DNA of 39,030 nt from Methanospirillum stamsii (GCF_003173335.1 NZ_QGMZ01000035.1:1-39030), one strand, 5' to 3'; shown: positions 3,143-25,291, counted from the first letter of the stretch. Notes: generated by a model from the sequence alone, not told the origin. Program-made: numbers and translations.

Positions 3143-3694
3143 TTATAAACTGGAGTAATATGCTTCTCCGGAACAGCTTTTACAGAGTATGAGCTCCCCT
3201 TTTTGTATATCTCTGCCATCCATAATTTGTTCTTTGCACTTGGAGCATGTAACAGACCTTGAAGGAAATCCGGGCATATCTTCCGGAGGAATCTGAACTG
3301 AAACCTCCTGGATCCGGATTATCTGTTCTTCTGGTGCATTCAGGATCATATCACGAAGTTCATTCATATCCGTAGGCTGATCCTCTTTTTTAGGAAGTTG
3401 TGAAACGCGGACGGCTTTCCCATTCTGTGTATCAACAAATGTAGCAGCAAATTTCCCAAAATTTAGAACCTTTAATGTCCGGTGCCCGAGTGAACACCCG
3501 GTAATTGCCTGGATTGCATCTGTTGCACACCTGTCTATCTCAACGTAAACGATAAGGTTTTGGTTTTTCTCTAAAGGGTTCATACCGAGTTCTCTCATCG
3601 CAGCTATAGTCATCCTGGTTCCGGTAGCAATCCCCGGACAGATATCTCCATGGAACTGTTTTGCCTTCTCTAAAAGGGTAGTAATTGCGTTCAT
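3143..3694 (-). CDS. fmdE: FmdE-family protein with C-terminal zinc ribbon
   Basis: Member of the FmdE family, named from the molybdenum formylmethanofuran dehydrogenase operon of methanogens; its biochemical role is not established. The 183-residue protein carries the family signature FHGDICPG (His15, Cys19) near the N-terminus. A conserved middle region includes VEIDRCATDA and ITGCSLGHRTL, with Cys56 and Cys67. The C-terminal zinc ribbon has CSKC (150, 153) and CKSC (171, 174). This is the usual domain order and length. A DUF364 remnant lies 69 bp downstream on the same strand, so the two may once have formed an operon. The fwd operon is about 18 kb away. A role in metal handling or insertion is inference. 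Confidence 0.85.
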   Translation of the reverse strand: MNAITTLLEKAKQFHGDICPGIATGTRMTIAAMRELGMNPLEKNQNLIVYVEIDRCATDAIQAITGCSLGHRTLKVLNFGKFAATFVDTQNGKAVRVSQLPKKEDQPTDMNELRDMILNAPEEQIIRIQEVSVQIPPEDMPGFPSRSVTCSKCKEQIMDGRDIQKGELILCKSCSGEAYYSSL

Positions 3695-5678: not shown

Positions 5679-6725
5679 TTATGATGATGAAGGTTTATTC
5701 AGAACAACTTTACTCTTGTCCTGAAGAAGGTTCTTGACATCCTCGTCTGAAAGTTCAATCCGATAGAATTTCTTGTAAAAGTCCTGAATTTCTTTTGCAA
5801 GATCAAAGGTAACCGCATCCGGATAAACCATACTCTGCAGCCACATCGTTCCAAGGATTGATTCCGGAACCGGAAGTTCCCAGCTCATAAGGTACTTTGG
5901 CATCTGGTAAACCTGCTTTTCCTGGACTGCCGGAAGGGATTCCCATGCAGAATCAGATAAAATATCTTCAACATTTGCTGAATTATACGGGAGGAGAATT
6001 ACTACAGATGGATCCCAATTATAAACCTGGTCGATGGTTACAGTGTTATCTCCACCGGATAATCCCTGTGCTACATTTGCTGAACCGATGATACGTGCAA
6101 TTTCTGCTTCATAATAATCATCACCCAGTGTCTGGAGAGGGGACCTCTGACCAAAGTAAATAGTCTTTTTATCAGTGTCGGTGATCGAATCTCCGGTTTC
6201 CTGGATGGATTTCATCTTCTGATTGTAATAATCAATGAATTCCTGTGCTTCTTCTTCTTTACCAAAGACTTTTCCGATTATATCATAACTTTTTGCAAGG
6301 TTATCTGCCTGTTCAAGATCAATTTTTACTATTGGAATACCCACTCTTTCGATATCATCGTTGATCTTGGTATAGTCAACAGAAGAAATCACAACCTCCG
6401 GCTCAAGTTTCATTAATTCTTCAAGGTTTACATTAGTTTTACAACCAGCTGAAGGTAATGCACCAAGTCTTTTTTGTGTTTTATTGACCAACTCGCGGTT
6501 TGCCGGTCCGATACAGGTTGCAACCAGGCGGTCATCTGCCCCGATGACATAAATAAACTGGCTGGAGAAAGGATCAACGGTAACAACCCTGCTCACATCA
6601 GCAGGTATCTGAACATCAGTTCCGGTAATGTCAGTAATCGTAATTTCTTCGGCTACTGCACATCCTGTCAGCAATACGATTCCTGTCAGAAGGATACAAC
6701 ATACATGAATCAGAGATAATTTCAT
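5679..6725 (-). CDS. Class III ABC transporter binding lipoprotein (BtuF/FecB/MolA type), copy 1
   Basis: Extracytoplasmic binding protein of an ABC importer for a metal chelate, cobalamin or oxyanion. A signal peptide of about 20 residues ends in the lipobox LLTGC (Cys22 from the start used here). The N-lobe begins with TDITGTDVQIPADVSRVVTV and contains LGALPSAGCKTNVNLEELMKLEPEVVI, the class III pattern. A long linker helix with FGKEEEAQEFIDYYNQKM is followed by the C-lobe ending SWELPVPESILGTMWLQSMV. I use ATG 6725 rather than GTG 6731 because GGTG sits about seven bases ahead of it. No permease is adjacent; the nearest is at 16.8-17.9 kb. It is a paralogue of the three binding proteins at 10.5-14.1 kb but is diverged from them. 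Confidence 0.85.
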   Translation of the reverse strand: MKLSLIHVCCILLTGIVLLTGCAVAEEITITDITGTDVQIPADVSRVVTVDPFSSQFIYVIGADDRLVATCIGPANRELVNKTQKRLGALPSAGCKTNVNLEELMKLEPEVVISSVDYTKINDDIERVGIPIVKIDLEQADNLAKSYDIIGKVFGKEEEAQEFIDYYNQKMKSIQETGDSITDTDKKTIYFGQRSPLQTLGDDYYEAEIARIIGSANVAQGLSGGDNTVTIDQVYNWDPSVVILLPYNSANVEDILSDSAWESLPAVQEKQVYQMPKYLMSWELPVPESILGTMWLQSMVYPDAVTFDLAKEIQDFYKKFYRIELSDEDVKNLLQDKSKVVLNKPSSS

Positions 6726-6794
6726 ACACACACCATTTAGTGATCTTATGATCTGAGTATGTTATGTTAACTTGAACTTAAGAAATTACCTAAT

Positions 6795-7371: not shown

Positions 7372-7977
7372 TTAACAGGTTTTTGATGCTTCTATTGCAG
7401 CCTTGAGGGCATCCTCAGACACACCAAGTGTTTTTGCTGCATCTGCAAAGTGTCCACCGTCACCAGGTGTTCCCATTACTGCATTTAATGCTTCTTCAGA
7501 AACACCTAAGTTTGCGGCTATTGCTGCATTATCTGGTCTTTCACCTGGCTGACCGTTCCCTTGTTCACCCATTGCTGCTTTCAGTGCATCCTCGGCAACA
7601 CCAAGCGTATTTGCCATTGCAGCAAAATCTCTTTCCGGCTGCTCTTTCATACCCATTGCTGCCTTAAGAGCGTCTTCAGTGACACTAAGAGTCTTTGCAG
7701 CTGATGCAAAGTCCATTCCCTTCTCACCACTGCCCATTGCTGCCTTAAGAGCATCTTCAGTAACACCAAGAGTTTTTGCAGCTGATGCAAAATCAGGTCC
7801 CGGATGAATTGCAGACTTGAGAGCATCTTCAGTAACACCAAGTGTTGCTGCGGCCTTTGCATAATCAGTACAGTCCTGTGGTGGCTGACCCTGTGGAGCC
7901 TGGTCTGCTGCATATACTCCACTGACAAGGAGAGCAAACAAACTAATGATTCCTAATATTTTGATGATTGATTTCAT
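7372..7977 (-). CDS. Secreted protein of six ~30-residue helical repeats
   Basis: Unknown exported protein. Residues 1-23 are a signal peptide (MKSIIKILGIISLFALLVSG, cleavage likely after VYA). The rest of the ~201 residues is six copies of a motif of the form DFASAAKTLGVTEDALKAAMG, separated by Gly/Pro/Gln-rich linkers of 4-20 residues. Each copy looks like a small helix-turn-helix unit. Only two cysteines follow the signal region, one before the first repeat (QDCTDY) and one as the last residue, so a disulfide could close the array. The frame continues 13 codons further upstream, but ATG 7977 fits the signal peptide; a TATA-like TTTTTTAAATAG lies near 8037-8048. No anchor or sorting signal is visible at the C-terminus. 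The function is not known to me. Confidence 0.75.
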   Translation of the reverse strand: MKSIIKILGIISLFALLVSGVYAADQAPQGQPPQDCTDYAKAAATLGVTEDALKSAIHPGPDFASAAKTLGVTEDALKAAMGSGEKGMDFASAAKTLSVTEDALKAAMGMKEQPERDFAAMANTLGVAEDALKAAMGEQGNGQPGERPDNAAIAANLGVSEEALNAVMGTPGDGGHFADAAKTLGVSEDALKAAIEASKTC

Positions 7978-8089
7978 GATATCTATTCCCTTACAATAGC
8001 GATCTTCAGAGAACAACAGATGTTGAACAGAACGCTATTTAAAAAATGATAGTCCGGTTGGTTGGAATGGACAACCAAATGGTTTGATG

Positions 8090-9838
8090 TTAACGGGCAG
8101 AAGCCTTGATAAACGATCGGGTAGGATGGATTTTTTCAAATGGGACTCCATAAAAACGCCGGTAAAAACGATCTGCTTCAGATGTGACATCCCATGAGCA
8201 TCTGTCCGGATGAAAAGATTTTGCAAGGAGCATAAGTCCCAGTATCCACCGTGGACTGCCAAAATCCCACGATGCAGGCATCTCCAGAATATTTTTCTTT
8301 TCGATAGCCGGAACAATCAGGTCGTTTTTGAGACAATACGCAAGACATGCATCTTTCGGAAGTGAGAACAGTCCAGATATACAGATCCAGTCAGGGTTTA
8401 CCGCATAAAATTCTTCGGAAGTGATATTTACTCCCGGTTTTCCGGTTCTGGGGATCATCCGGTTTACCGGATTTCCTCCTGCTGTTTCCACCAAATGATT
8501 CTCAAATCTCCCACCATTCAGTGAAAAAACCGGATAACCCATGGTATAAAGCACCCTTGGGCGTGCGGCCCCTGAAACAGCAGTGGTAACCCTGGCAGTC
8601 ATCTCTTTGAGAACCGCGGTTAATTCTTCTCCGGTCTCTTTCCGGTCTACGATTCCAGCCACCTCATCTATGATACCATAATACGAAGAAATCTTCTGGA
8701 TCCGGTCATGAATGGAACTAATACCGCCTTCTGCAAGGAAGGACCTCCAGAGTCTCGGGGCACATGATGGATCATCCACACCAAGACAGGAAACGATCCC
8801 CTGAATAAATTCAAGCGCCCTCGTTGGTCTGTACCCTCCATCCATCCCTTCTTCTTCGAACCGCTCAGAAGATACTATCCCTGCTATCGGCAGATGATAT
8901 CCACATGAACACATGTTTGTATGGGAAAATGATACAGGTCTGCATCCCATCGGACCATACATCTCCCGTTTTGCAAGTACCCTGCCACAATCCGGGCAGG
9001 TTGTATCCAGACAGGAGGTTCCGGGTGAATTGAGGAGATAAACATGAGGGGTGAATTCATGAATCCTGGCACATAAGTGTTCTGATTCAGGAATAGAAGG
9101 CTCGTATTCCTGTCCCAGGTCACCAAAAGCCATGCATCTCATGATCTGAATGGGTATCCGGTCAGATATAGAAACAACTTCCTTTGCCTGTTGAATCAGG
9201 TCATTATCAAAACCTGTGGCATGCATGAGGGCTACTTCAACATGAACTCCTGCTGCCACGAGTTTTTTGATATTTTCCATGACTATCCGATTATTTACAA
9301 TACCGCACTCTCTCAGATTTCCCGGATTGATACCTTTCAATCCAATATTTACCATATCCAGAACCGGAAGCAGAAGGTTCAGGGTATAGTCAGAAAAGTA
9401 TCCATTTGATGAACATGCAACAAACAGTCCCTTTTCTTTTGCAAGTTTTGCTACCCGGAGAAAAGACGGGAGAGATACCGTTGGCTCATTCAGACAAAAG
9501 ACAATTCCCAGGCATTCCTCTTCTTTTGCCTGTCTGATGAGCGTCTCTGCATCTATCTTTCGAAGACCTGTTCCTATTGCTTCAGGAGTTCGGGCAAGAA
9601 TTTCTGAAACGCATCCCGGACAGGAAAGATTACAACCAACTGTGCTGATCTGAAGGGCTTTTGCCTTTGGCCATCCATGAACAAAAGGAATGGTTTCTAC
9701 AGAGACCGAGGTTACTACAAGCCAATGGTCCGGATATCTCTCTACTATCTCATTATTGGATGAAGAATACATGGCACATCTGCCTGTACTTCCTTCTGAA
9801 ATGTCACAATGATGCGGACAATAGAGACACTTTGTCAT
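8090..9838 (-). CDS. Radical SAM enzyme fused to a class III binding-protein lobe
   Basis: A 582-residue two-part protein without signal peptide, so cytoplasmic. Residues 1-270 are a radical SAM domain of the COG1180 (PflA/AmmeMemoRadiSam-like) type: an N-terminal cysteine set (Cys4, 7, 11, 21 in CLYCPHHC and GRC), then the cluster motif VGCNLSCPGC (Cys69, 73, 76) and LNEPT at 116-120. Residues ~275-320 hold more cysteines (CPDCGRVL, CSCGYH), probably a metal site. From ~385 the sequence follows the linker helix and C-lobe of class III ABC binding proteins: RPRVLYTMGYPVF, GGNPVNRM, VNPDWICISGLF, SWDFGSPRWILGLMLLAKSFHP, FYRRFYGV. The gene starts inside the stop of the upstream methyltransferase gene (ATGA overlap), so the two are translationally coupled and follow binding-protein gene 2. 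The reaction is unknown; the fusion suggests the enzyme senses or modifies the ligand of the transport system. Confidence 0.8.
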   Translation of the reverse strand: MTKCLYCPHHCDISEGSTGRCAMYSSSNNEIVERYPDHWLVVTSVSVETIPFVHGWPKAKALQISTVGCNLSCPGCVSEILARTPEAIGTGLRKIDAETLIRQAKEEECLGIVFCLNEPTVSLPSFLRVAKLAKEKGLFVACSSNGYFSDYTLNLLLPVLDMVNIGLKGINPGNLRECGIVNNRIVMENIKKLVAAGVHVEVALMHATGFDNDLIQQAKEVVSISDRIPIQIMRCMAFGDLGQEYEPSIPESEHLCARIHEFTPHVYLLNSPGTSCLDTTCPDCGRVLAKREMYGPMGCRPVSFSHTNMCSCGYHLPIAGIVSSERFEEEGMDGGYRPTRALEFIQGIVSCLGVDDPSCAPRLWRSFLAEGGISSIHDRIQKISSYYGIIDEVAGIVDRKETGEELTAVLKEMTARVTTAVSGAARPRVLYTMGYPVFSLNGGRFENHLVETAGGNPVNRMIPRTGKPGVNITSEEFYAVNPDWICISGLFSLPKDACLAYCLKNDLIVPAIEKKNILEMPASWDFGSPRWILGLMLLAKSFHPDRCSWDVTSEADRFYRRFYGVPFEKIHPTRSFIKASAR

Positions 9839-10488
9839 GTACGCTCCATCATAAGCCAGAAGCTGGAATCATCATCAACAATTGAATATTTATTTACTCC
9901 TGCCTTCTGTAATGCTGATGAGATCACTTCAGGAGAACGTGAGATGAATCTTTCTTTTATCGAATTTTCAAACTCTGGATCCCGCTCTTTCATCTTTTCT
10001 ACAATGTCTTTTTTAAGAGAAGCATTTCCAAATCCTCCCCCGACGTAAGAGACTCCTCCGGGTTTTAATACCCGGTATATCTCCTTAAGACCCTTTGATA
10101 AGTCTTCCCAGAAAAACCATGATCCCCTGCTGAAAACGAGATCAAAGGTTTCATTATCAAAAGGAATCTCACAAACATCTCCAACTGTAGGTATTACTCT
10201 CTTTGAAAGTCCTTTTTCTGTAATCCGCTCGGTACATGTCTGGATCATATCAGGCGATACATCAAGGGCATATACGGTTAATTCTGAAATAGCAGCAAGG
10301 GATGTGCCCAGATGTCCAGGACCACATCCGATTTCCAGGGCAGTTCCAGAAGATACACCGGTATTTTTAATGATCTGTTCTGCGATAATAGGATAAATAG
10401 GAGCAAAGATGGTATCTGCAATTGTTAAAAAATGTTTGCTGTCTTTTTCCCCCATTTTCGTCGCTGATTTTTCTACCATGCTCTTCAA
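9835..10488 (-). CDS. Class I SAM-dependent methyltransferase
   Basis: Predicted S-adenosylmethionine-dependent methyltransferase of 217 residues, small-molecule type (UbiE/Methyltransf_11 like). Motif I is ALEIGCGPGHLG (50-61), the acidic end of strand 2 is VYALDVSPDMIQ, the motif II region is GDVCEIPFDNETFDLVFSRG, and the motif III region is EIYRVLKPGGVSYVGGG. It lies five bases after the binding-protein gene 2 and overlaps the radical SAM fusion gene by four bases, so the three genes form one minus-strand operon. The operon context suggests it modifies a metal ligand or cofactor handled by the same system. The acceptor is not visible from sequence. Confidence 0.82.
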   Translation of the reverse strand: MKSMVEKSATKMGEKDSKHFLTIADTIFAPIYPIIAEQIIKNTGVSSGTALEIGCGPGHLGTSLAAISELTVYALDVSPDMIQTCTERITEKGLSKRVIPTVGDVCEIPFDNETFDLVFSRGSWFFWEDLSKGLKEIYRVLKPGGVSYVGGGFGNASLKKDIVEKMKERDPEFENSIKERFISRSPEVISSALQKAGVNKYSIVDDDSSFWLMMERT

Positions 10489-10493
10489 TTATC

Positions 10494-11588
10494 TCATTTG
10501 TATTCAGGAACTCTTTTTAATAGTCCGTCAAGCTCTGTAGATGTCAGGGTTACATCGTAAAACGATTCATAAAACTCTGACACTTTTTCCCGAAGTTGGT
10601 CGGTTGTGTATTTTTCAGGATACAGGGTGTGAAGCATCCAGTATAGTCCAGGAATCTGGTTGGTTCCCGGTGGCCGGTCAAACCAGGAAAATGGTGCAGC
10701 AGGTACTGCATATACTTTCTCTGACTTTACTGCAGGAATATCCTGCCAGAGGGGATCGTCAAGGACTGATGATGCAAATGATGAATCACTGGCTATGATA
10801 ACATCTGGTTTCCAGGTCATAACCTGTTCAAGAGAAATCGGCGTCATACCATATCCGGGAGTGATGGTCGTTTCTGCAACATTTTTGCCCCCACAATAAT
10901 CAATTAGAAGTGAGTGTTGTGATCCGCTCGGGTCGGTTGCAAGGCCATCTGGTCCTTCAGCATAAAATACCCTCACTTTTTCTGCATCCGGGATGGTTGA
11001 TACGGTCTCTTCTACAGTTTTGAGAGCCTCTTTATAATAGGCGTTCAGGGCATTTGCCCGTTCTTCTTTTCCAAGGACTGAACCAATAAAGGTAATTGGT
11101 CCGGAATATTTGGATATGTTAGCGGTATCCTGAACAGTTACAAGCGGAATATCACCAAACCGTACCTGTCGCTCTTCAACCTCATCGACATTTTTCGGAT
11201 CTCCGGTAATAGTACGTCCTTCAAAGATGATATCCGGATTCAGGTTGATGAATGTTTCATAATTTCCATCAGTTTTTCCAAACCATCCTCCAACCACCGG
11301 CAGGTTTTGATACTGCTCCGGCATGTACATCATGTTCAGGTCAGTGGGTTTGGAATTCCACGCTGCAAGAAGTTCAGGAGCCACCAGGTACAATGTCATG
11401 GTAGTCGGTGGGGCGGTGCTGACAACACTGGTTATTTCTGTCGGTATTGAAAGTTCTCTACCAAGATCATCGGATATTACGTGGTCAGAAGAGACAGTGT
11501 CTGCATACATTGGTGAAATACACAGAATACTTGCGATTATTGCAATGAATGCAATTATTAATCCTTTATTAGTCATGCCTTTCCTCAT
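10494..11588 (-). CDS. Class III ABC transporter binding protein, copy 2
   Basis: Extracytoplasmic binding protein of the BtuF/FecB/MolA fold, 364 residues. The N-terminal hydrophobic segment (GLIIAFIAIIASILCI) ends near MYADT; there is no clear lipobox, so it may be a cleaved signal or a membrane anchor. The N-lobe starts with VISDDLGRELSIPTEITSVV and the C-lobe contains PFSWFDRPPGTNQIPGLYWM, which matches FWWDRPSPES in copies 3 and 4. The first ATG is 11588; ATG 11576 is also possible, since AGGAAAGG lies directly before it. It is the first gene of the operon with the methyltransferase and the radical SAM fusion, and is divergent from copy 3. Its substrate could be a metal chelate, cobalamin-like compound, molybdate or tungstate; the family covers all of these. 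Confidence 0.83.
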   Translation of the reverse strand: MRKGMTNKGLIIAFIAIIASILCISPMYADTVSSDHVISDDLGRELSIPTEITSVVSTAPPTTMTLYLVAPELLAAWNSKPTDLNMMYMPEQYQNLPVVGGWFGKTDGNYETFINLNPDIIFEGRTITGDPKNVDEVEERQVRFGDIPLVTVQDTANISKYSGPITFIGSVLGKEERANALNAYYKEALKTVEETVSTIPDAEKVRVFYAEGPDGLATDPSGSQHSLLIDYCGGKNVAETTITPGYGMTPISLEQVMTWKPDVIIASDSSFASSVLDDPLWQDIPAVKSEKVYAVPAAPFSWFDRPPGTNQIPGLYWMLHTLYPEKYTTDQLREKVSEFYESFYDVTLTSTELDGLLKRVPEYK

Positions 11589-11834
11589 CTTAAGTTACTG
11601 GTTTTAGTAAACTTAGTTATGAGGTACATTTTATTAATTAAAAAAAGATACTATTTAGATCTGGTTAGATACTTCTCGTTTCCCATCTTATTCGGCTGAA
11701 ATTTTGGATAATTTCAAAGATGATAAGAATTAGCATACTCATTATAGTTAATAAAATTAAAAGATAAATAACTTTATTTGTAAACCGCGATAATCAACAG
11801 GAATGATAATTACTATCTTCCTGAAGTGAATCAT
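11589..11834. promoter_or_regulatory. Divergent promoter region between binding-protein genes 2 and 3
   Basis: About 240 bp of AT-rich DNA. TTAGATC (11655-11661) and TTAGATA (11665-11671) resemble the arm of the inverted repeat at 6816-6824. AGTTAATAAAATTAAAAGATAAATAAC near 11747-11773 is TATA-like for the plus-strand gene. GTGAATC at 11826-11832 resembles the GTGATC part of the archaeal ribosome binding site and favours ATG 11835 for copy 3. Confidence 0.4.
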
Positions 11835-12881
11835 ATGCAAAAGAATGTATATTCTCTTATTCTGGTTATATTCCTCATTTTGGGGTGTATGAGTATCTGC
11901 CCGGTAAGTGGGGAGACGGTATCAACAAAGATCATCACCGATATGGGTGGAAATGATGTTACGATCCCGGCCGATGTACAGCGTATTATCATTACCTGTT
12001 ATGGTGGGGCTACACAGGAAGTTGCAGTAATGGATGGTGAAAGTAAGGTAATCGCTCAACCTCCCCAGAGTTTCCCGGCTTTTCTAAAGATGTATCCGGA
12101 TCTCACAAATGTTCCAGATGTAGGGAAATTTGATGAACTCAATATTGAATCCATTATGGAACTCAATCCTGATGTTGTGATAAACAGTGTAACTGCATCT
12201 AAAGGTAATGCAAAACTTAAGGAAAATTCGATACCGGTAATTCAGGTTTATACAGGGAAGGCGAATTTAAGCAATATCTATAATGAATTCAGAATGATGG
12301 GAGATCTTCTCAATGAACCGGTCAGGGCGGAACATCTCATTTCGTATTGGGATGAGAAAAAGGCATTATTAAACGAAAGAATCAGTAAAATCCCAAAAGA
12401 TAAGAAAAAAACGGTCTATTACATGCTCGGAAGTCCCTTACATACAAATGGTGAGAAGTGGTGGGGAGATTCCTTTGTTACCATTGCCGGAGGCATTAAT
12501 GTTGCTGCTGATATTGGTGATGTCAGAGATATCAATGCAGAACAACTTGCACAGTGGGATCCGGACGTAATCGTGGTAAGTGCCAATGAAGGTTCATACG
12601 TATCTGATGAGACTATCAATAGTGATCCACAACTTGCAGGTTTAAAAGCGATTAAAAATGGAGAAGTGTATCACATTCCGATTGGTGGATTCTGGTGGGA
12701 CCGGCCTTCTCCGGAAAGCCCACTCGGATTCTTATGGCTTGCAAAGACCCTTTATCCGGAAACATTTAGCGATATCGATATGGTAAAAGAAACAAAAGAA
12801 TTTTTCAGTGATTTTTATGGTGTAGAATTATCTGATGATGAGATCAGTGAGATACTTGAAGCAAAAAACCCTGCATTCTGA
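11835..12881 (+). CDS. Class III ABC transporter binding protein, copy 3
   Basis: Extracytoplasmic binding protein, about 348 residues. The signal sequence (YSLILVIFLILGC) contains a possible lipobox ILGC. The N-lobe begins TDMGGNDVTIPADVQRIIITCYGG, and the C-lobe carries GGFWWDRPSPESPLGFLWLA. It is strongly similar along its length to copy 4 downstream: both have FDELNIE or FDDLNME, LNPDVVINSVTASKGNAK or LKPDVVINSVTASKGNAK, and VQAYTGKA-like segments. A recent tandem duplication followed by divergence is likely. The frame extends to a GTG at 11826, but ATG 11835 with GTGAATC upstream is preferred. It ends about 120-170 bp before copy 4, with AT-rich DNA between, so copy 4 may have its own promoter. 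Confidence 0.85.
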   Translation: MQKNVYSLILVIFLILGCMSICPVSGETVSTKIITDMGGNDVTIPADVQRIIITCYGGATQEVAVMDGESKVIAQPPQSFPAFLKMYPDLTNVPDVGKFDELNIESIMELNPDVVINSVTASKGNAKLKENSIPVIQVYTGKANLSNIYNEFRMMGDLLNEPVRAEHLISYWDEKKALLNERISKIPKDKKKTVYYMLGSPLHTNGEKWWGDSFVTIAGGINVAADIGDVRDINAEQLAQWDPDVIVVSANEGSYVSDETINSDPQLAGLKAIKNGEVYHIPIGGFWWDRPSPESPLGFLWLAKTLYPETFSDIDMVKETKEFFSDFYGVELSDDEISEILEAKNPAF

Positions 12882-13053
12882 ATCCGGTATATTCAATTTT
12901 TTTTACTTTTTTATGTATGTATTATATGACCAACATTCGCTCATAATAGATCAGATATACTTTCTATCGTTAATTAAATGAATAAGTTAATTAGATAGTG
13001 TGTTAATTTTGTACAAACAGGATGAGCCTAAAGTTCATCCGGATGTGGTATGT

Positions 13054-14082
13054 ATGAATATGAAATCTTATTCTACTATTTTGTTACTTTTCCTTTTTAT
13101 TGGATTAATCACATTTACTCAAGTAGCTGGCGATGCAACGACACGGACACTCACCGATATGGGTGGCAATGAAATAACTATTCCAACAGATATTGAGCGA
13201 ATTGTAGTTGCCTGCCAGGGCGGAGTGGCTCAGGAAATTGTCATAATGGGCAGTCCGAAAACGGTGGTAACAATGTCATCAATGAACATGTTTCCTATGT
13301 TCGTAAAGATGTACCCGAATTTTAAGGATTTACCAAATGCAGGAAGTTTTGATGACCTTAATATGGAAACCATTCTCAAATTAAAACCTGACGTGGTAAT
13401 TAACAGTGTTACGGCATCAAAAGGAAATGCGAAAATTACAGAAAATGATATTCCTGTTTTTCAGGCGTATACCGGAAAGGCTTCAGCTGATACAATTTAC
13501 AATGAATTCAGGGCTTTTGGAGAATTATTTAACAATCAGGTAAAAGCCGAAGAACTCATCTCCTACTGGGACGAAAAGAAGAATTTTATCAATGATAGGA
13601 TGAAGTCCATTCCTGAAGATGAGAGAAAGACCGTCTTTTATACCTCAAACAAGGATTTGGGAACTGATACCAATTGGGGCGTCTCGTATGTTGCAACATC
13701 CGGAGGAATTAATGTTGCCAAAAACCTGGGAGATGCAAAAGTCAATCCGGAAAAACTCGCTGAATGGGATCCGGATGTAATCATTATCAGGGGTAATACA
13801 GACGGTACCTATCCGGACCAGGAAATTATTAGCAATCCACAGTTATCTGGTCTTTCTGCAATAAAGAATGGTGAGATCTATAATGTACCTATGGGTGGTT
13901 TCTGGTGGGACCGACCATCTCCGGAAAGTGCACTTGGATTTTTATGGCTTGCAAAGATTCTCTATCCTGATACATTCAAGGACGTTGATATGGTGGGTGA
14001 GATGAAATCTTTCTTTAAGAATTTCTACCGGTATTCCCTCTCTGATGAAGAGGCCAACGAAATTCTATCGGTGAATAATTGA
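13054..14082 (+). CDS. Class III ABC transporter binding protein, copy 4
   Basis: Close paralogue of the preceding gene. The frame opens at 13000, but the signal peptide (MKSYSTILLLFLFIGLITF) shows that translation begins at ATG 13054 or 13060; GGATGTGG lies ahead of both. The N-lobe begins TDMGGNEITIPTDIERIVVACQGG and the C-lobe has GGFWWDRPSPESALGFLWLAK. No lipobox cysteine is present, unlike copy 3. Copies 3 and 4 differ around the predicted cleft (YMLGSPLHTNGEKWWGDSF against YTSNKDLGTDTNWGVSY), so their ligands may differ. It is followed after 10 bp by an O-methyltransferase-type gene and then a DUF364 gene, forming one plus-strand operon. Confidence 0.85.
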   Translation: MNMKSYSTILLLFLFIGLITFTQVAGDATTRTLTDMGGNEITIPTDIERIVVACQGGVAQEIVIMGSPKTVVTMSSMNMFPMFVKMYPNFKDLPNAGSFDDLNMETILKLKPDVVINSVTASKGNAKITENDIPVFQAYTGKASADTIYNEFRAFGELFNNQVKAEELISYWDEKKNFINDRMKSIPEDERKTVFYTSNKDLGTDTNWGVSYVATSGGINVAKNLGDAKVNPEKLAEWDPDVIIIRGNTDGTYPDQEIISNPQLSGLSAIKNGEIYNVPMGGFWWDRPSPESALGFLWLAKILYPDTFKDVDMVGEMKSFFKNFYRYSLSDEEANEILSVNN

Positions 14083-14092
14083 GGCGTGTATA

Positions 14093-15130
14093 ATGGAAAA
14101 TTCCCAAAATACCCTCATATCTTCACTTCAGTTTCCTGATGGTTTTCAGGAGATTGAAACAAATATTTCCGGGTATAAACGGCATATGATCCTTACCAGT
14201 GCCCTGAAAATGGGACTTTTTGATCATCTTGAAAAATGTGGAGTTTCATCCAGGGAGGAGATTGTTTCCTCTCTTCCCCTGTGTGGAATGCTGAGCCGAA
14301 GTTACCTGAATGCACTCGTGTCCATGAATCTCCTGGTAGTAGAAGGAGAAAAGTATCAAAACAGCCAGATTTGCCGGGATTTTTTAACGAAGAAAAGTCC
14401 GTATTACCAAGGGGATCTGATTCTTGGCAATTCAAAATCCGGATCACGATGGGATCTTCTCTCTGAAGCAATGCAGAGCAGTGATGGAATGGCTAAATCA
14501 TCCGGACCTGGGCCATCTATCGACCATCTTAATACTCTTGCCCAGCGGGTAATTCAGGGAGAAGCCCAGGCACTCACTACATGGATATCCGAACTCCCGG
14601 GATTTTCCGAAATGAAAAAAATGCTGGATATTGGAGGAGGACACGGGCTGTATACAATCGGCATCTGCCAGATGAATCCTGATATAAAAGGAGTTATCCT
14701 GGACCAGCCCCATGTTACCGATCTCACAAAAATGTATATCCAAAAATATGACATGGAAAGGAGAATCCTGTCAAAACCCGGAGATATCAAAACAGAAGTC
14801 TACAAACCCGAGTATGACATAATTCTTATATCCCATCTTCTGTATAAGTTCAGAAATGACCTTGATGAGATATTCAGGCTGGTAAGTGGAGGCCTAACAG
14901 AAAATGGCATTCTTGTTTCCAATCACTGGTTCTGCTCTCCGGGATGTCTCCCTTCACAGGATCCGGTAAATGAACTTGAACGTTCGCTCCAGAGTGCTGG
15001 TCATCCTCTCTGTCATCCGGAACATTTTGCGGAATTATTTAAAAAATATGGACTCACCTGTATCAGAACAGGAACCATTGAAACTGCCAATGGCTCATCC
15101 ATGCTCCATGCAGCACAAAGGGGAAAATAA
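14093..15130 (+). CDS. O-methyltransferase-type SAM protein, copy 1
   Basis: 345-residue protein with the layout of dimeric plant/microbial O-methyltransferases: an N-terminal winged-helix dimerisation region (residues ~25-105, with ALKMGLFDHLEK and SRSYLNALVSMNLLVVEGEKY) and a C-terminal Rossmann methyltransferase domain. Motif I is MLDIGGGHGLYT (177-188), followed by VILDQP, DIILISHLLYKF and VSNHWF. The acceptor is unknown. GAGG about nine bases before the ATG supports the start. Its stop overlaps the start of the DUF364 gene (TAATG), which implies coupled translation. A diverged paralogue, sharing YYQGD, GGHGLY and SNHWF, lies at 20287-21315 inside the fwd region. Linkage of both copies to metal or fwd genes suggests a role in a metal ligand or cofactor pathway. 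Confidence 0.82.
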   Translation: MENSQNTLISSLQFPDGFQEIETNISGYKRHMILTSALKMGLFDHLEKCGVSSREEIVSSLPLCGMLSRSYLNALVSMNLLVVEGEKYQNSQICRDFLTKKSPYYQGDLILGNSKSGSRWDLLSEAMQSSDGMAKSSGPGPSIDHLNTLAQRVIQGEAQALTTWISELPGFSEMKKMLDIGGGHGLYTIGICQMNPDIKGVILDQPHVTDLTKMYIQKYDMERRILSKPGDIKTEVYKPEYDIILISHLLYKFRNDLDEIFRLVSGGLTENGILVSNHWFCSPGCLPSQDPVNELERSLQSAGHPLCHPEHFAELFKKYGLTCIRTGTIETANGSSMLHAAQRGK

Positions 15131-16038
15131 TGAGTAGTGAATCCCAGTTCTCTCAGGGAGAAAAGTCATTTGATTTTTATTCTGCAGAAAATGACCGGTA
15201 CCAGGGAGGTATCATTCTCCAGGAGACAAAAGACCGTTTAATCGAAAGATATGGAGAAAAATTAGATAACCTTACCTTAAAGCGGGTAGTAATTGGAATT
15301 TTCTACACCGGTGTCCTGTTGTCTGATGGTTCATCAGGTATCTGTTTTACTCCTATCAAGGCGATTCCGGAATCAGTTTGCTGTCCTTCATCTGCACGTG
15401 CAATGCCACGGGCTGGAAAACTGAGAGGGATGAAGGTAACTGATATTTTTCAGTATCTGACACAACCGGCTCCCATTAAACGTGCAATTGCTATTGCAAC
15501 CCTGAATGCCCTTTCAGACAGGATTTGGCGGAACAATCCTGATGAAGGTGCAGGCAAATACCGGATTGAGGAAGGAGACGATATCTTTTCGATAGTTGAC
15601 TTACAGTCAATTAAAAAGGCCGTAGTCGTCGGAGCCTTAATTCCGGTGATTAAATCGTTTAAAGAAAAACAGATCCCATACCGGATTGCTGAACTGGATA
15701 TCCGGACGTTAAAAGAAGAAGAACTCCCTTTCTTTGTAAGCCAGGAGGATCTCCCCGGAGAACTTGCATCTGCCGACATGGTCATTATATCCGGAACAAC
15801 CCTCCTAAATGATACCCTGGAGAGTATTCTTTTTACATGCAGTCCGGCAGCAAACATTATGCTCATTGGTCCGACTGCAACCATGCTTCCGGAGAGTTTT
15901 TTCTCAAGAAAAGTTACTGTCCTTGCAGGAAACCGGGTAGTCGCACCTGATAAAGTATTAGATGTCCTTATCGAAGGCGGATCCGGTTATCATTTCTATG
16001 GTGATTCGTCAAGAAAAGTAATGATAATAAAAGAGTGA
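15130..16038 (+). CDS. DUF364 family protein (putative heavy-metal chelation)
   Basis: 302-residue protein of the DUF364 family with the DUF4213-type N-terminal region. The family was proposed from structure to bind heavy metals; its reaction is not established. Visible features are an N-terminal domain with GIFYTGVLLSDGSSGICFTP and the cysteine segment ESVCCPSSARAMPRAGKL, and a Rossmann-like C-terminal domain (VVVGALIPVI, DMVIISGTTLLNDT, IMLIGPTATMLPESFF) ending GGSGYHFYGDSSRKVMIIKE. The ATG overlaps the methyltransferase stop codon. It is the last gene of the operon binding protein 4 - methyltransferase - DUF364. A remnant of a second DUF364 gene lies next to fmdE at 2904-3074. No signal peptide, so it acts in the cytoplasm, presumably on the imported metal species. 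Confidence 0.82.
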   Translation: MSSESQFSQGEKSFDFYSAENDRYQGGIILQETKDRLIERYGEKLDNLTLKRVVIGIFYTGVLLSDGSSGICFTPIKAIPESVCCPSSARAMPRAGKLRGMKVTDIFQYLTQPAPIKRAIAIATLNALSDRIWRNNPDEGAGKYRIEEGDDIFSIVDLQSIKKAVVVGALIPVIKSFKEKQIPYRIAELDIRTLKEEELPFFVSQEDLPGELASADMVIISGTTLLNDTLESILFTCSPAANIMLIGPTATMLPESFFSRKVTVLAGNRVVAPDKVLDVLIEGGSGYHFYGDSSRKVMIIKE

Positions 16039-16046
16039 ACCCAAAA

Positions 16047-16063
16047 ATCCCTTTTTTAGGGAT
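16047..16063. terminator. Hairpin shared by two convergent operons
   Basis: ATCCCT-TTTTT-AGGGAT is a 6-bp stem with a T5 loop, located between the DUF364 stop and overlapping the last codons of the ATPase gene on the other strand. It may terminate both transcripts. There is no long T-run after the stem, so the call rests on position and symmetry. Confidence 0.35.
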
Positions 16064-16835
16064 AAGAAGGCACACATACATTTCTATTAGCTTGTTTGAT
16101 GAAATGAACACCGATGGATATCTGGTAAGTATCTTCAAGTGTCTCTTCTGTTACTACTTCTTCAGCCTGCCCGACCAGTGATACAAAGCCGTTTTTCATA
16201 ATGCCTGCCTGACAGGAAAGCAGAAATGTATGATCGGGATAATGGGTTGACATGATAATGGAGATGTTTCGTTCCTTTGCCAGTTTATCAAGGATATGAA
16301 GGATTTTTACCTGGTTTCCGAAATCAAGATGGTTTGTTGGTTCATCCAGGATTAAAATTGATGGTTCCTGGGTAAGCGCCCGGGCAATCATGGCCAACTG
16401 GCATTCACCCCCACTAATCCGATTTACCGGGGCATCTTTAAGGTGCTCAATACCGACACTCTGAAGCGATTGTTCAGCAATTTCGACATCTCTTTTTCCC
16501 GGACGTGAATAAGGAGAAATGTGCGGATTTCGTCCCAGCAGGACAAGTTGGAGAACAGAAAAAGGAAATACAATGTTATGTGCCTGTGGAACATATCCTA
16601 TTTTTTGAGCCAGTTCCCTGCGTGTCCAATGTTCAATCGCTTTTCCATCAATGCAAACCTCACCTGTCCGAACTGGAAGAATTTTTGCGCAACATTTGAG
16701 AAGTGTTGATTTACCTATACCATTCGGACCTAAAATACACAGGACTTTACCTTTCTGAAGAGAAAAAGTAACGTTCCCGAATATTACACGTTCTGGATTG
16801 TACCAGAACCCAGCATTTTTAATTGAAAACATCAT
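16056..16835 (-). CDS. FecE/BtuD-type ABC transporter ATPase
   Basis: ATP-binding subunit of an importer for metal chelates, cobalamin or oxyanions. About 259 residues, a normal length for the family. Walker A is GPNGIGKSTLL (near residue 36), the Q-loop is GYVPQAHNI, the signature is ISGGECQLAMIARAL, Walker B is ILILDEPTNHLD, and the H-loop is MSTHYPDH, all intact. The frame opens at GTG 16841, but ATG 16835 overlaps the permease stop as ATGA and has GGGTGG upstream, so it is preferred. With the permease it forms a two-gene minus-strand operon, opposite to the plus-strand operon of binding protein 4, methyltransferase and DUF364. Confidence 0.9.
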   Translation of the reverse strand: MMFSIKNAGFWYNPERVIFGNVTFSLQKGKVLCILGPNGIGKSTLLKCCAKILPVRTGEVCIDGKAIEHWTRRELAQKIGYVPQAHNIVFPFSVLQLVLLGRNPHISPYSRPGKRDVEIAEQSLQSVGIEHLKDAPVNRISGGECQLAMIARALTQEPSILILDEPTNHLDFGNQVKILHILDKLAKERNISIIMSTHYPDHTFLLSCQAGIMKNGFVSLVGQAEEVVTEETLEDTYQISIGVHFIKQANRNVCVPSYP

Positions 16836-17875
16836 GTCCACCCAACATCACGTCTTGCCATAATGTATGCAAAAAAGGGAACCCCGACAATAGCAGTCAG
16901 GATTCCCAGAGGAATTTCTGCAGTTGTGGCATTCCTGGCAATGTTATCTATAAGAATAAGATAAGCCGCTCCAAGAAAGAATGAGACCGGGATGAGACAT
17001 GCATTGTCCGGCCCGACCAGCATCCTTCCAAGATGTGGGATAACTAGGCCAATCCAGCCAATTATCCCGCAGATACAAACAGAATACGCAGTAATCATCG
17101 TTGAGATGAGAATTAGGATGTATTTCATTCTCCGGGTATCAACTCCAAGAGCTCCTGCCTCTTCATCACCAAGTGAAAATACATTGAGCCGCCATCCAAT
17201 CAGAATGCAATACGCAACTCCCGGGATGATGAACACTCCTGCAAGAAGGATATCCGGCATTGTTACTGCGCTCAGGGATCCCATCAGCCAGTAGGTGATT
17301 GCCGGGAGTTTCGATGTAGGATCAGCCACGAATTTCACCAAAGAAATAAGAGAGGTAAAAAGAGAACTCATGATAATTCCGGATAGAACCAGAACCAGAA
17401 TTGATTCTCCCTTGTATATTCTTGAAAGGGTAATAGCAAATCCCACCGATAAGAGCCCAAAAAAAAAGGCAGATGCTTCTATGAGGAGAAGCGGCAATGA
17501 AAAGAGAATTGCAATGGCTGCACCAAATCCTGCTCCTGAAGATACTCCCAGGATGTCCGGAGACACCATCGGATTACGAAAAAGACTTTGATAGACCGCT
17601 CCTGCTACAGACAGGCCACCCCCGATTAAAAAAGCACCAAGAATCCGGGGGATCCGAATGTTGAAGATTACATTCGCCTGAGCCTCAGTCCACGTTGAAT
17701 CCGGGTGAAAAACCGGAGATAAGAGGATTGTGAAGACGGTAGCGGGATCAAGAGTATACTGTCCGATAAAAAGTGATACTAAGGAAAGAATGAAGGGAGA
17801 TAGGATGATGCATGCAATACCTGCCGTTAAACCATATTTATTCATCCCTTCGAAGCGCATCAATTCCATTACCAT
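16832..17875 (-). CDS. FecCD/BtuC-type ABC transporter permease
   Basis: Membrane subunit of a type II ABC importer, 347 residues with about ten membrane helices, as usual for FecCD proteins, working as a homodimer. Recognisable segments are RIPRILGAFLIGGGLSVAGA and NPMVSPDILGVSSGAGFGAA in the N-terminal half, and GIIGWIGLVIPHLGRMLVGP, the coupling-helix region that contacts the ATPase. Several in-frame ATG codons lie in the first eleven residues; ATG 17875, 17869 or 17845 are possible. It is the only importer permease in the window and could serve all four class III binding proteins. The MolBC and BtuCD importers share this fold, so the substrate may be an oxyanion, a corrinoid or a chelate. 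Confidence 0.9.
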   Translation of the reverse strand: MVMELMRFEGMNKYGLTAGIACIILSPFILSLVSLFIGQYTLDPATVFTILLSPVFHPDSTWTEAQANVIFNIRIPRILGAFLIGGGLSVAGAVYQSLFRNPMVSPDILGVSSGAGFGAAIAILFSLPLLLIEASAFFFGLLSVGFAITLSRIYKGESILVLVLSGIIMSSLFTSLISLVKFVADPTSKLPAITYWLMGSLSAVTMPDILLAGVFIIPGVAYCILIGWRLNVFSLGDEEAGALGVDTRRMKYILILISTMITAYSVCICGIIGWIGLVIPHLGRMLVGPDNACLIPVSFFLGAAYLILIDNIARNATTAEIPLGILTAIVGVPFFAYIMARRDVGWT

Positions 17876-18136: not shown

Positions 18137-19516
18137 TTATGGCCCTGCAGGAATTATTTTTTTATGGGAGTTGGTAATTGAAAACCCGATTTTCTCCTGT
18201 GCCAATATCTCTTCAACCTTGTTTGCAATACCCGATAACACCTCTTCATCTGAGAGCATTCCCTCCGGCATATCCACCACTTTCCTATACTGGATTGGAA
18301 CATTATCCATCCGGTACACAATCCCCGGAACTTCTACTCCGGAAATTCCAACAGGAATATGGAGATCTGCAATCTCTGCAGCCATACTCATATTTGGATC
18401 GATAGTTATCCAGGTATGTTTTTTCAGGTGCCTGACGGTATCAATTGGGAAATGGGCAGCAGCATCGGTCCCGATATTAATGAACAGATCAATTTCGTCA
18501 CGGTTCGCAAGGTCAATTGTACTGGTCTCTCCTGGATTCATGTGAGCACAGTTACCCTTGGTTAGATCGAGGCAATAGGGGAATCCATATGACCAGCACC
18601 AGACACGGTTCGCTCCTGCGACATTAAAATGACCCCGCATAGCCATAATAGACCATTTAGATATTTGGTTTAAATCCCGGGTAAGAGAGATTGCAATGTC
18701 AATATTGTGATTTCTTCCGTCAGTATGAGTAAGTCCCATCCCGAAAAAAAACACTCCGAATTTTGCTTGTTTTAAAATTCCCGCAACTTCAAGGATGGTC
18801 TGTTTTGGAATTCCTGCAACCATCTCCGGGAGTTCTTTTTCAAATCCATATATGACCATCCGGAAAGCATTGAAAAGTTCATAATCATGTCCAGGCTTAA
18901 CCTGAAGGTAATAATCTGCAATTCCCGCGGTATCTGTGTTCCGTGGGTCGACAACAATCACCGTCCGTTCAAAAAACCCGTTTCCTTTGAAAAAACCCAG
19001 GGGATAGATTGCATATCGTGACATATGTCTTGGATGGGCATGGATAGGATTTGCACCCCAGTACAGAATAACATCTGCCCGGTTTTTCACTTCTCCAAGG
19101 GTGCAACTAGGATATCCGTTATCAAAATGAGCGATTAATGAAGGGCCATGACAAATCGATGCACAATTGTCAAGAATGCCACAACCAAGTTCCATGAGTC
19201 GTGCAGCTTCCCGTTGTGCTTCACAGGTTGTTGATCCGAATCCATAGATAAGTGGTTTTTTTGCTGCAACGATTGCTTTCGCTGCATAATCAAACGCTTC
19301 AGGGTAAGAGATCTCCTTCCATGATCCATCTGACTGGCGAAGTCTTGGCCGTGTTATCCGGTCGGAACTGGTTGCCTGCAAAAAAATTTCTGTGCCGATT
19401 GCACAGGCATTTTCTACTTCGAGGATCTTCTTTCCGTCATCAGATACTACAACCTTGATATCATCACATGAGCAGCCACAATACGGACACCCGATTCCTT
19501 CAAGAATTTTTGGCAT
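18137..19516 (-). CDS. fwdB: Formylmethanofuran dehydrogenase subunit B, second copy
   Basis: Catalytic W/Mo-pterin subunit of formylmethanofuran dehydrogenase, which interconverts CO2 and methanofuran with formylmethanofuran in the first step of methanogenesis. The [4Fe-4S] site is GCPYCGCSCDD (Cys10, 13, 17) with Cys38, and the metal-ligand cysteine is Cys98 in GFGSTTCEAQ, so it is a cysteine and not a selenocysteine enzyme. The pterin-binding regions CASICHGPS and DVILYWGANPIHAHPRHMSRY are intact. The frame opens at 19537, but ATG 19516 has GGGAGG eight bases upstream and matches the other FwdB start. It overlaps the second fwdD by 17 bp. It is clearly diverged from the copy at 23964-25289 and has a longer C-terminus. 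Whether this is the Mo (Fmd) or W (Fwd) isoform cannot be read. Confidence 0.9.
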   Translation of the reverse strand: MPKILEGIGCPYCGCSCDDIKVVVSDDGKKILEVENACAIGTEIFLQATSSDRITRPRLRQSDGSWKEISYPEAFDYAAKAIVAAKKPLIYGFGSTTCEAQREAARLMELGCGILDNCASICHGPSLIAHFDNGYPSCTLGEVKNRADVILYWGANPIHAHPRHMSRYAIYPLGFFKGNGFFERTVIVVDPRNTDTAGIADYYLQVKPGHDYELFNAFRMVIYGFEKELPEMVAGIPKQTILEVAGILKQAKFGVFFFGMGLTHTDGRNHNIDIAISLTRDLNQISKWSIMAMRGHFNVAGANRVWCWSYGFPYCLDLTKGNCAHMNPGETSTIDLANRDEIDLFINIGTDAAAHFPIDTVRHLKKHTWITIDPNMSMAAEIADLHIPVGISGVEVPGIVYRMDNVPIQYRKVVDMPEGMLSDEEVLSGIANKVEEILAQEKIGFSITNSHKKIIPAGP

Positions 19517-19925
19517 CTGTAAATCCTCCCATGCCAACAGCCTGAAAAATCAGTTCTCTCGCACTGCGGACCTTCTCATTCGGAGCAGGAAAAATACACA
19601 CAGGAAAACCACTGTACTGAGGAACACCGGTTGATTGCGTTCTACCCGGAACAATCTGGTTAGCCCAGACACCCTGCCTGATATGACAGATTCCCGGACT
19701 TAATGTCTGAATGCCATAAATAGCCTTCACAATAACCTCACCACACTCACTTCTGACCCTGACCGGGGTATTCTCTTCTATGCCCATACGAAGCATATCA
19801 AGTTCATTCATCTCGATAACGCTACAGGCATTGAAATATTCCCTGGAATTTTTACCTTTTTCCATGGCAATGCCTTCTTCTATTGACCTTTGGGTTATCA
19901 TGGTCAGGGTCTGTTTTTGTGTCAT
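19500..19925 (-). CDS. fwdD: Formylmethanofuran dehydrogenase subunit D, second copy
   Basis: Molybdopterin-dinucleotide-binding subunit, 141 residues, the C-terminal-like domain that in other molybdoenzymes is fused to the catalytic chain. It contains TMITQRSIEEGIAMEKGK, the beta-barrel core VRVRSECGEVIVKAIYG, and the pterin-binding segment IRQGVWANQIVPGRTQSTG followed by PQYSGFPV. GTGAGGAACC lies before the ATG. It is coupled to the second fwdB. The 46-bp gap to the small upstream gene on the same strand is compatible with one transcript including the methyltransferase and the small protein. Confidence 0.88.
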   Translation of the reverse strand: MTQKQTLTMITQRSIEEGIAMEKGKNSREYFNACSVIEMNELDMLRMGIEENTPVRVRSECGEVIVKAIYGIQTLSPGICHIRQGVWANQIVPGRTQSTGVPQYSGFPVCIFPAPNEKVRSARELIFQAVGMGGFTDAKNS

Positions 19926-19971
19926 GCAGGTTCCTCACAATTTCTATCGGGTAAGGAAGTGATTATCGGAG

Positions 19972-20244
19972 TTATTCTCCAATGAGTTCTATCGCTAGTT
20001 CATAGGGATTTCTCGGACGTTCACTTCCGGGTTTATTCGTGAAAAAGGTATCCGGATGAATTTTTTTCATATCTTCGATACTAAGTTTATTAACTATATC
20101 TCTGACAACCTCATCTGCATCTTTGGATTTTCCGGGAAATTTCAGGATATATCCCATCTTGATATGCATGAGCATTGCTTCCCGGAGTTCATCGTCAGTG
20201 AGCCGGTCGAAGGGAGTAAATTTCAGGATTTCAGGTCTTCCCAT
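19972..20244 (-). CDS. Small unknown protein in the fwd region (90 residues)
   Basis: I do not recognise the family. The frame opens at 20277, but ATG 20244 has AGAAGGT six bases upstream and is preferred. The protein is highly charged and probably helical: FDRLTDDELREAMLMHIKMG, DADEVVRDIVNKLSIEDM, ending NPYELAIELIGE. It has no cysteines, no signal peptide and no membrane segment. It lies 42 bp after the methyltransferase copy 2 and 46 bp before the second fwdD on the same strand, so it is probably co-transcribed. A chaperone or assembly role for the dehydrogenase or its cofactor is possible, based only on position. Confidence 0.65.
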   Translation of the reverse strand: MGRPEILKFTPFDRLTDDELREAMLMHIKMGYILKFPGKSKDADEVVRDIVNKLSIEDMKKIHPDTFFTNKPGSERPRNPYELAIELIGE

Positions 20245-20286
20245 TGATGTACCTTCTCTTGTATTCTCTCTCAGCACAAGAAATAA

Positions 20287-21315
20287 TTATTCCACCTTTC
20301 TCTCTGCCATATGAATGGTTGATTGCCCGTATGAAGATCTGGTTATCCCAATCTGAAGTAATTTCAGGTTATTTTTTTCATAAAGGGATTCAAACAGTTC
20401 CTTATCAGGGAGAAGGTGATACCGGTTATGCATGGCAAGTTCAAGTTCATATAGACCCTGCGATCCGGTTCCGCCTGTAGGTGCTGCAAACCAGTGATTT
20501 GAAAGGAACAGACCATCAGGATTCAAAACATATGCAATCCCTTTGAGGATTTCATCAAGATTTTCTTTATATGGATAAAGTGAGTGAGAAAGAAGAACAA
20601 TGTCAGATTTATCTCCCTTGTAAGAGAGAATATCTCCAGGAATTACCTTAATTCTCTCATTCATTCCAAATTTTGAGATGTTCTCTTCTGCAGGTCCGGT
20701 GTCCAATGAACCACAAAGCACCACTGCGCTTAATTCAGGATTATTCTGACAGGCTGCAATTGCATAGAGTCCATGTCCACCATTCATTTCGATTAAGGTT
20801 CTGGCATTAGAAAACTGTGGCCATGACATGAGAGTTTTTGTGACATTCTGAACGGTTCCCCGGAGATCATGGTTGGCTCTGCCCCTGACTGATTCTGTGG
20901 ATACAGGATCAAAGGTATTTTTTTCATCCGGTTTTGTCAAGAATGTCTCTATATCCTGCCAGGGCGATTCATCATTCGGGAGATTTAAAATGTAGTCGCC
21001 CTGGTAATACATGCTTGTCCGGATAAAATTAAGCCCGGCTGCCGGAGAAATGTAATAAGAATCCTCCTTTCTTCTCACCATATCCAGGTAATAAAGCATG
21101 GAAAGAAGACTTGGCATATATTCCGGTTTAATTCCTGTACCTTCTGCAATTTGTTCAGGGGTGGAGGGACCGTTTTCCGAAAGCCATGTAAACAGATCAA
21201 TCTTTAAAGCCGCCCGAATAACCATGAATTCTTTGTAGACCTGAACCAGGTCATCTACAATTTCTATAACCGGTAGTTCCGGGATTTTCAGAATATCTTG
21301 TGTCTCATTGATCAT
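20287..21315 (-). CDS. O-methyltransferase-type SAM protein, copy 2
   Basis: 342-residue paralogue of the protein at 14093-15130, with the same winged-helix dimerisation region (ALKIDLFTWLSENGPSTPEQ, MPSLLSMLYYLDMVRR) and a Rossmann methyltransferase domain. Motif I reads IEMNGGHGLYAI (175-186), with Glu in place of the usual Asp before the glycines, followed by VVLCGS, DIVLLSHSLYPY and LSNHWFAAP. Strand-2 VVLCGS lacks the acidic residue that normally binds the SAM ribose, so cofactor binding may be altered. It lies 118 bp downstream of fwdC and upstream of the small protein and the second fwdD-B pair, all on one strand. Position suggests work on the dehydrogenase, its cofactor, or a metal ligand; the substrate is unknown. 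Confidence 0.8.
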   Translation of the reverse strand: MINETQDILKIPELPVIEIVDDLVQVYKEFMVIRAALKIDLFTWLSENGPSTPEQIAEGTGIKPEYMPSLLSMLYYLDMVRRKEDSYYISPAAGLNFIRTSMYYQGDYILNLPNDESPWQDIETFLTKPDEKNTFDPVSTESVRGRANHDLRGTVQNVTKTLMSWPQFSNARTLIEMNGGHGLYAIAACQNNPELSAVVLCGSLDTGPAEENISKFGMNERIKVIPGDILSYKGDKSDIVLLSHSLYPYKENLDEILKGIAYVLNPDGLFLSNHWFAAPTGGTGSQGLYELELAMHNRYHLLPDKELFESLYEKNNLKLLQIGITRSSYGQSTIHMAERKVE

Positions 21316-21433
21316 GGATTATCACATAGTATACTTTTTTTCACAAAAAGTGAATGGAAATGCTCATTTACCTGCCTTAAAAACCTGCGTTAGAATATTA
21401 ATGGATGGCAGATACATTGAAAAGAAAAAGAGG

Positions 21434-22234: not shown

Positions 22235-22245
22235 TTTTATTCCCC

Positions 22246-23961: not shown

Positions 23962-23963
23962 TT

Positions 23964-25289: not shown

Positions 25290-25291
25290 AA

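Follow-up and report, generated by a model that had tools for sequence, protein, structure and literature searches.

How anaerobes supply molybdenum (Mo) and tungsten (W) to their CO2-reducing enzymes in sulfidic, metal-poor settings is an open question, and it arises at one locus of Methanospirillum stamsii (GCF_003173335.1, NZ_QGMZ01000035.1:1-39030), where a stretch of 39,030 nucleotides, here called the window, makes up the entire contig C29 of a 3.74-Mb genome. At positions 8090-17875 a radical S-adenosylmethionine (SAM) enzyme in fusion with half a binding protein (RSAM-PBP) stands with methyltransferases, a DUF364 protein and a FecCD-type importer, and an earlier note on this DNA had guessed from the neighbouring formylmethanofuran dehydrogenase (fwd) genes that the metal concerned is Mo or W. 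Our analysis supports, with a rough probability of 0.7, a Mo/W acquisition and processing system common to methanogenic archaea and anaerobic bacteria, and the importers and enzymes together are probably an undescribed route by which anaerobes obtain either metal. The features concerned are the following:

8090-9838, minus strand: RSAM-PBP, radical SAM enzyme with the C-terminal half of a class III binding protein (Radical_SAM, E 7.7e-12; Peripla_BP_2, E 4e-7)
9835-10488, minus strand: MT11, class I SAM methyltransferase (Methyltransf_11)
10494-11588, minus strand: PBP1, class III substrate-binding protein (Peripla_BP_2)
11589-11825: divergent promoter region common to two operons, from the gene coordinates
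11826-12881, plus strand: PBP2, class III substrate-binding protein (Peripla_BP_2)
13000-14082, plus strand: PBP3, class III substrate-binding protein, paralogue of PBP2 (Peripla_BP_2)
14093-15130, plus strand: O-methyltransferase-type protein, OMT (OMT dimerisation domain and Methyltransf_2)
15130-16038, plus strand: DUF4213-DUF364 protein (E 2e-35)
16056-16841, minus strand: ATPase of the FecCD-type importer (ABC_tran, E 6e-32)
16832-17875, minus strand: FecCD/BtuC-type permease (FecCD, E 3e-84)

All of the genes that the earlier note had named here are open frames at these places with significant family matches, those of PBP1, PBP2 and PBP3 to Peripla_BP_2 lying between E 2e-21 and 2e-32. 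They form three transcription units, namely PBP1, MT11 and RSAM-PBP on the minus strand, PBP2, PBP3, OMT and DUF364 on the plus strand, and FecCD with its ATPase on the minus strand; most junctions overlap or are at most 11 bases wide (MT11 and the start of RSAM-PBP share 4 bases), the exception being a gap of 118 bases between PBP2 and PBP3.

The gene neighbourhood, whose absence from other genomes would in the view of that note have spoken against its proposal, is conserved in archaea and bacteria. In a scan of named genomes, among the best 80 of 167 relatives (loci are cited below by L numbers), the RSAM-PBP gene shares its operon with MT11 in 58 cases, with a binding protein in 47, with an ATP-binding cassette (ABC) ATPase in 37 and with FecCD in 34. 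RSAM-PBP matches are found in 27 of 197 sampled genomes of the phylum, a few of them without the binding lobe or as fragments, and the closest relatives, at 68-80% identity, belong to Methanomicrobiales/Methanospirillum genomes. Archaeal carriers are Methanomicrobiales, Methanosarcinales and Methanolliviera, while the bacterial ones include Desulfobacterota, Campylobacterota (Sulfurospirillum), Firmicutes, Deferribacteres, one gammaproteobacterium, and also Syntrophomonas and Sporomusa. In L110, from Desulfobacterales, a single strand reads TonB-MoeA-MT-MT11-OMT-DUF364-TonB-PBP2-RSAM-PBP-PBP1-FecCD-ABC, which unites all families of the window with MoeA and TonB receptors, and this single operon supports taking the three window operons as one system.

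The guessed link to Mo or W is backed by riboswitch leaders, by ModABC, ModE, MoeA and FmdE as operon or locus neighbours, and by MolA-like binding proteins. The Mo/W cofactor riboswitch RF01055 lies in the same-strand 5' leader of RSAM-PBP operons in L120, L124, L125, L126, L146/L160, L149 and L150, and a Moco-II RNA leads that of L143; RF01055 is present in 11 of 30 bacterial genomes, and 8 of their 13 RSAM-PBP loci are led by the riboswitch or by Moco-II. L126/L158 also has a separate DUF364-TonB-PBP-MoeA operon with two RF01055 copies and one Moco-II element. ModE adjoins the RSAM-PBP operon in Sulfurospirillum, and a helix-turn-helix (HTH)-PBP_like protein is found in three other loci; L037, L081 and L129 have MT11, RSAM-PBP and ModABC in a single operon, in L082 the first two are divergent from ModABC, and MoeA accompanies the system in some loci, including the L110 operon. 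Within 15 kb of RSAM-PBP, over 61 loci (28 archaeal and 33 bacterial, from 24 archaeal and 30 bacterial genomes) and against a null of uniform placement, we counted DUF364 in 18 loci (0.83 expected, P 2e-18), FmdE in 10 (1.1 expected, P 3e-7), ModB in 6 (1.3 expected, P 2e-3) and RF01055 in 7/33 (1.0 expected, P 8e-5), these P values being optimistic since the genomes are related and the loci phylogenetically non-independent (e.g., L124 and L125). MoeA is near at least 2 of the 28 archaeal loci among the matches listed, which alone is not significant. The Mo/W assignment is strong in bacteria and, by homology, in archaea, and is weakest for Methanosarcinaceae.

The structure of the fusion enzyme bears on how the metal may be handled. 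An alignment of 17 diverse members has invariant cysteines in the CxxxCxxC motif (C69/C73/C76), at the N-terminus (C4/C7/C11/C21) and at C281/C284/C310/C312. In the AlphaFold2 model (predicted local distance difference test, pLDDT, 87), a fold comparison covering two domain regions matched about residues 32-270 to pyruvate formate-lyase (PFL) activase, QueE and NifB, and residues 339-573 to binding proteins including MolA. In a profile comparison (hhalign) the C-terminal part aligns to columns 166-377 of the 387 of the PBP family, i.e., to the interlobe helix and C-terminal lobe; because the N-terminal lobe is missing, the radical SAM barrel would occupy the place of the binding protein's first lobe, and a ligand may be held between barrel and half-PBP lobe. 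No signal peptide was seen on RSAM-PBP. The fused lobes form one clade with support 1.0 on a long branch; their derivation from one particular PBP class was not upheld, as the tree does not resolve the sister group. The best NCBIfam match is TIGR04337 (AmmeMemoRadiSam) over residues 3-301, at 72.5 bits far under the cut-off of 220, and NCBIfam holds no model for a radical SAM-PBP fusion.

Two further observations concern radical SAM genes. A family of 390-430 amino acids (aa) without a Pfam match (c18; L104:7303-8475, L105, L106, L109, L061, L062, L063) lies beside a stand-alone radical SAM gene and MT11 or FecCD; as a missing binding lobe of split radical SAM genes it was rejected, since hhalign shows no relation to binding proteins. 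In L146, a second radical SAM enzyme, BioB/HmdB/PylB-like (8893-9756, plus strand), stands right after the Mo/W riboswitch and ahead of RSAM-PBP.

As to the importer, the closest solved chains of PBP1 are 4pag (from Sulfurospirillum; E 8e-49), 4ovk and MolA 3psa (E 1e-20), and PBP2 matches 4ovk (E 2e-41) and MolA 3psa (E 5e-26), MolA being for both far ahead of BtuF, whose best match is about 1e-5. The permease reaches 188-220 bits against the BtuC models, under their cut-offs of 334-461. Of 25 diderm loci, 12 have TonB receptors, which here resemble siderophore and B12 receptors, and the 8 monoderm and 48 archaeal loci have none; a system that needs them more probably carries a large or scarce complex than free molybdate.

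We therefore propose a scheme whose constant core would be the coupled MT11 and RSAM-PBP, the C-terminal half of the latter corresponding to the interlobe helix and C-lobe of class III binding proteins; MolA-like PBPs and the FecCD importer would surround this core, with TonB receptors where an outer membrane exists, and DUF364, an OMT-like protein, further methyltransferases, FmdE, MoeA or ModABC would be optional. A cell short of Mo/W would import either metal as a complex with an organic ligand, by way of a TonB receptor where there is one and then of PBP and FecCD-ATPase; in the cytosol the half-PBP lobe would offer this ligand to the active site of the radical SAM enzyme, and the released metal would reach MoeA and the Mo/W enzymes, Fwd among them. 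The most likely reading is import of an organic Mo/W chelate, with the enzyme pair either building the ligand or opening it; what the ligand is and which direction applies are our inference, and so are the methylation of the ligand and the organic chelate itself. At a little under even odds, we lean towards the RSAM enzyme and methyltransferases building or tailoring the ligand, because methyltransferases are constantly present. That they open the imported complex and free the metal, which fits equally because the half-PBP enzyme stands beside the importer, we consider rather unlikely. ModABC in the same operon fits ligand building or the handling of a bare oxyanion. It is a tentative and somewhat doubtful further step that RSAM-PBP, MT11 and the optional methyltransferases make a small Mo/W metallophore of a new kind (molybdo- or tungstophore), which the cell would secrete and take back by the MolA-like/FecCD (+TonB) route, in a dedicated pathway common to methanogens and anaerobic bacteria.

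Several points weigh against this proposal. No synthetase was recognised among the annotated neighbours (not every neighbour being annotated), and an exporter (MATE) is in the operon only in L127. Neither a riboswitch nor a shared operator was found in archaea: there is no Rfam match in the archaeal window, which in that sense lies outside the RF01055 regulon, inverted repeats gave nothing usable as a shared archaeal operator, and region 11589-11825 has no operator in common with other Mo-gene promoters of the same genome. The Methanosarcinaceae operon has no adjacent Mo gene, its metal resting on homology, and the loci, as with L124 and L125, are not phylogenetically independent. Furthermore, MolA carries the bare oxyanion, by which analogy an organic ligand would not be required, and the pairing with ModABC fits bare-oxyanion import equally.

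These last points lead to a MolBCA-like importer of bare molybdate or tungstate, with RSAM, methyltransferases and DUF364 in some other Mo/W task (storage, insertion or a modified cofactor) and not touching the substrate. MolA, the closest characterised relative of the binding proteins, binds molybdate and tungstate (PMC4031551), and RSAM-MT11 shares one operon with ModABC in the three loci named above; however, the RSAM-PBP lobe shares homology with the binding proteins of the importer itself, and siderophore/B12-type TonB receptors in nearly half of the diderm loci are unexpected for a small oxyanion, so that we hold this explanation to be improbable. BtuB-BtuFCD salvages cobalamin and has its own riboswitch. 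A comparable salvage of the Mo/W pterin cofactor or its breakdown products would suit the control of TonB/FecCD-type uptake genes by RF01055 and the proposal that DUF364 acts on flavin- or pterin-like compounds (PMC2954201), but MoeA, which inserts the metal, fits metal delivery over a ready cofactor in the loci that have it, and uptake of free cofactor is without supporting evidence, which makes salvage very unlikely. Finally, the least credible of all is a conventional uptake system for a siderophore, heme or cobalamin that lies near Mo genes by accident: such systems typically have FecCD permeases, class III PBPs and TonB receptors, and the Methanosarcinaceae loci would allow it, but Mo/W riboswitches, ModE and the DUF364/FmdE enrichment speak against it, and a scan of 23 loci with every Rfam family gave no cobalamin riboswitch, so a cobalamin or iron system was dropped as a candidate.

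Regarding the optional proteins of the chelate scheme, OMT carries a family-conserved Cys/His set (C281, C285, H304, C307, H308 in the family alignment), and its nearest solved chains are those of the DSYB/MTHB methyltransferase. Many family members also have a Cys-rich C-terminal tail, absent from the window copy, and because of the conserved set and this tail, thiolate metal binding by the family is possible. OMT2, a paralogue within the fwd operon, is without the conserved set and the acidic SAM-site residue and may be non-catalytic. The DUF364 protein scores 122 bits (cut-off 23), and its N-terminal DUF4213 domain 75 bits (cut-off 23.5); the 2010 structure paper put the family forward as a chelator of heavy metals and remarked on genes for tungstate and molybdate transport in its gene context (PMC2954201). 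A divergent DUF364 subfamily of about 245 aa, at 30-50 bits, occurs near RSAM-PBP in L129:18927-19661, L112, L121 and L134. In the window, a short DUF364 fragment (2919-3050, minus strand; model positions 103-146, 56-aa frame) lies just downstream of the FmdE gene and is probably a remnant.

The surroundings of the cluster hold the following features:

190-993, plus strand: ModA, molybdate-binding protein (TIGR01256, 136 bits, cut-off 62.5)
3143-3694, minus strand: FmdE-domain protein, of a family enriched near RSAM-PBP
5679-6731, minus strand: PBP0, fourth class III substrate-binding protein, which follows RSAM-PBP in L070 and L071
6834-7250, minus strand: 138-aa protein without a Pfam match, conserved beside RSAM-PBP (L069, L070, L071)
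18137-25702, minus strand: fwd operon, neighbour and presumed metal user, with FwdB2 (18137-19537), FwdD2 (19500-19925), a 101-aa protein, OMT2 (20287-21315), FwdC, FwdA, FwdB (23964-25289) and FwdD (25292-25702)

Of the extent 8090-17875 drawn in the earlier note, the genes inside stand and the boundary does not, since L070 and L071 keep PBP1-MT11-RSAM-PBP and then homologues of the 138-aa protein and PBP0 in identical order, so the unit reaches past 8090 to the 138-aa protein (6834) and PBP0 (5679). Between RSAM-PBP and the 138-aa gene lies a secreted-looking protein (7372-8016, minus strand) with imperfect repeats 'AKTLGVTEDALKAAMG', which has no counterpart between the homologous genes in L070 and L071. 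The fwd operon has two FwdB/FwdD pairs (18137-19925 and 23964-25702), the FwdB at 18137 matching TIGR03129 at 606 bits. The same note's idea that the importer feeds the adjacent formylmethanofuran dehydrogenase finds no support as a general rule: FwdB is within 15 kb in 3 of the 28 archaeal loci (0.9 expected, P 0.06), so that a Fwd-specific supply was rejected on a position test over 24 archaeal genomes that was not significant, and many carriers are bacterial. Since fwd proximity is not generally conserved, the system would serve Mo/W supply generally. In L154 (C45 of the same genome) and in L151 and L153 of other archaeal genomes, fwd, MoeA, ModABC and FmdE cluster, with DUF364 and without RSAM-PBP in the latter two, and each is likely a molybdenum-type fmd locus; the company that DUF364 keeps in L151 and L153 adds to the case for Mo/W. 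In Sulfurospirillum (L123, L132) ModE/ExbBD and the RSAM-PBP operon lie between two truncated-globin genes. The conserved operon, the Mo/W riboswitch and cultivable bacterial carriers, among them Sulfurospirillum cavolei and Sporomusa ovata, open the supply question to direct test.

With respect to known systems, no published description of the RSAM-PBP fusion, the MT11 pairing or the riboswitch control was found in the open-access literature searched, subscription journals lying outside the scope. The association of DUF364 with Mo/W transport is already known (2010, PMC2954201), and the window protein is a member of that family (PF04016; Dhaf4260 3l5o; 3npg), but the paper is without the radical SAM-PBP enzyme, MT11 or riboswitch-controlled operons. 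The RF01055 founding paper covers molybdate transporters, Moco biosynthesis and Moco enzymes, and the passages searched in it do not mention this gene set (PMC2408646), though the same riboswitch precedes bacterial RSAM-PBP operons. MolBCA of Haemophilus influenzae (HI1470-1472) has the same FecCD-type permease, ATPase and class III binding protein, MolA (3psa/3psh) ranking with the nearest solved structures to PBP1 and PBP2. MolBCA is not known to include a radical SAM-PBP fusion, methyltransferases, DUF364 or a TonB receptor. It transports bare molybdate or tungstate with low affinity (PMC4031551). BtuFCD is set apart by the permease scores, under the BtuC equivalog cut-offs, and by the missing cobalamin riboswitch in the 23 loci. 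AmmeMemoRadiSam and PFL-activase-like enzymes share the radical SAM fold, while RSAM-PBP, well under the AmmeMemoRadiSam cut-off, is fused to half a binding protein and found with an importer. ChuW/HutW opens heme anaerobically. It offers an analogy in working, an importer with a radical SAM enzyme acting on the imported metal chelate, but is of another radical SAM family, with no such model among the NCBIfam matches of the window. A half-PBP fused to a radical SAM enzyme within metal-chelate uptake, as predicted from sequence and model, is beside these a novel enzyme architecture, and, if true, half a binding protein would act as a clamp that holds the ligand for radical SAM chemistry, which would be a new protein architecture.

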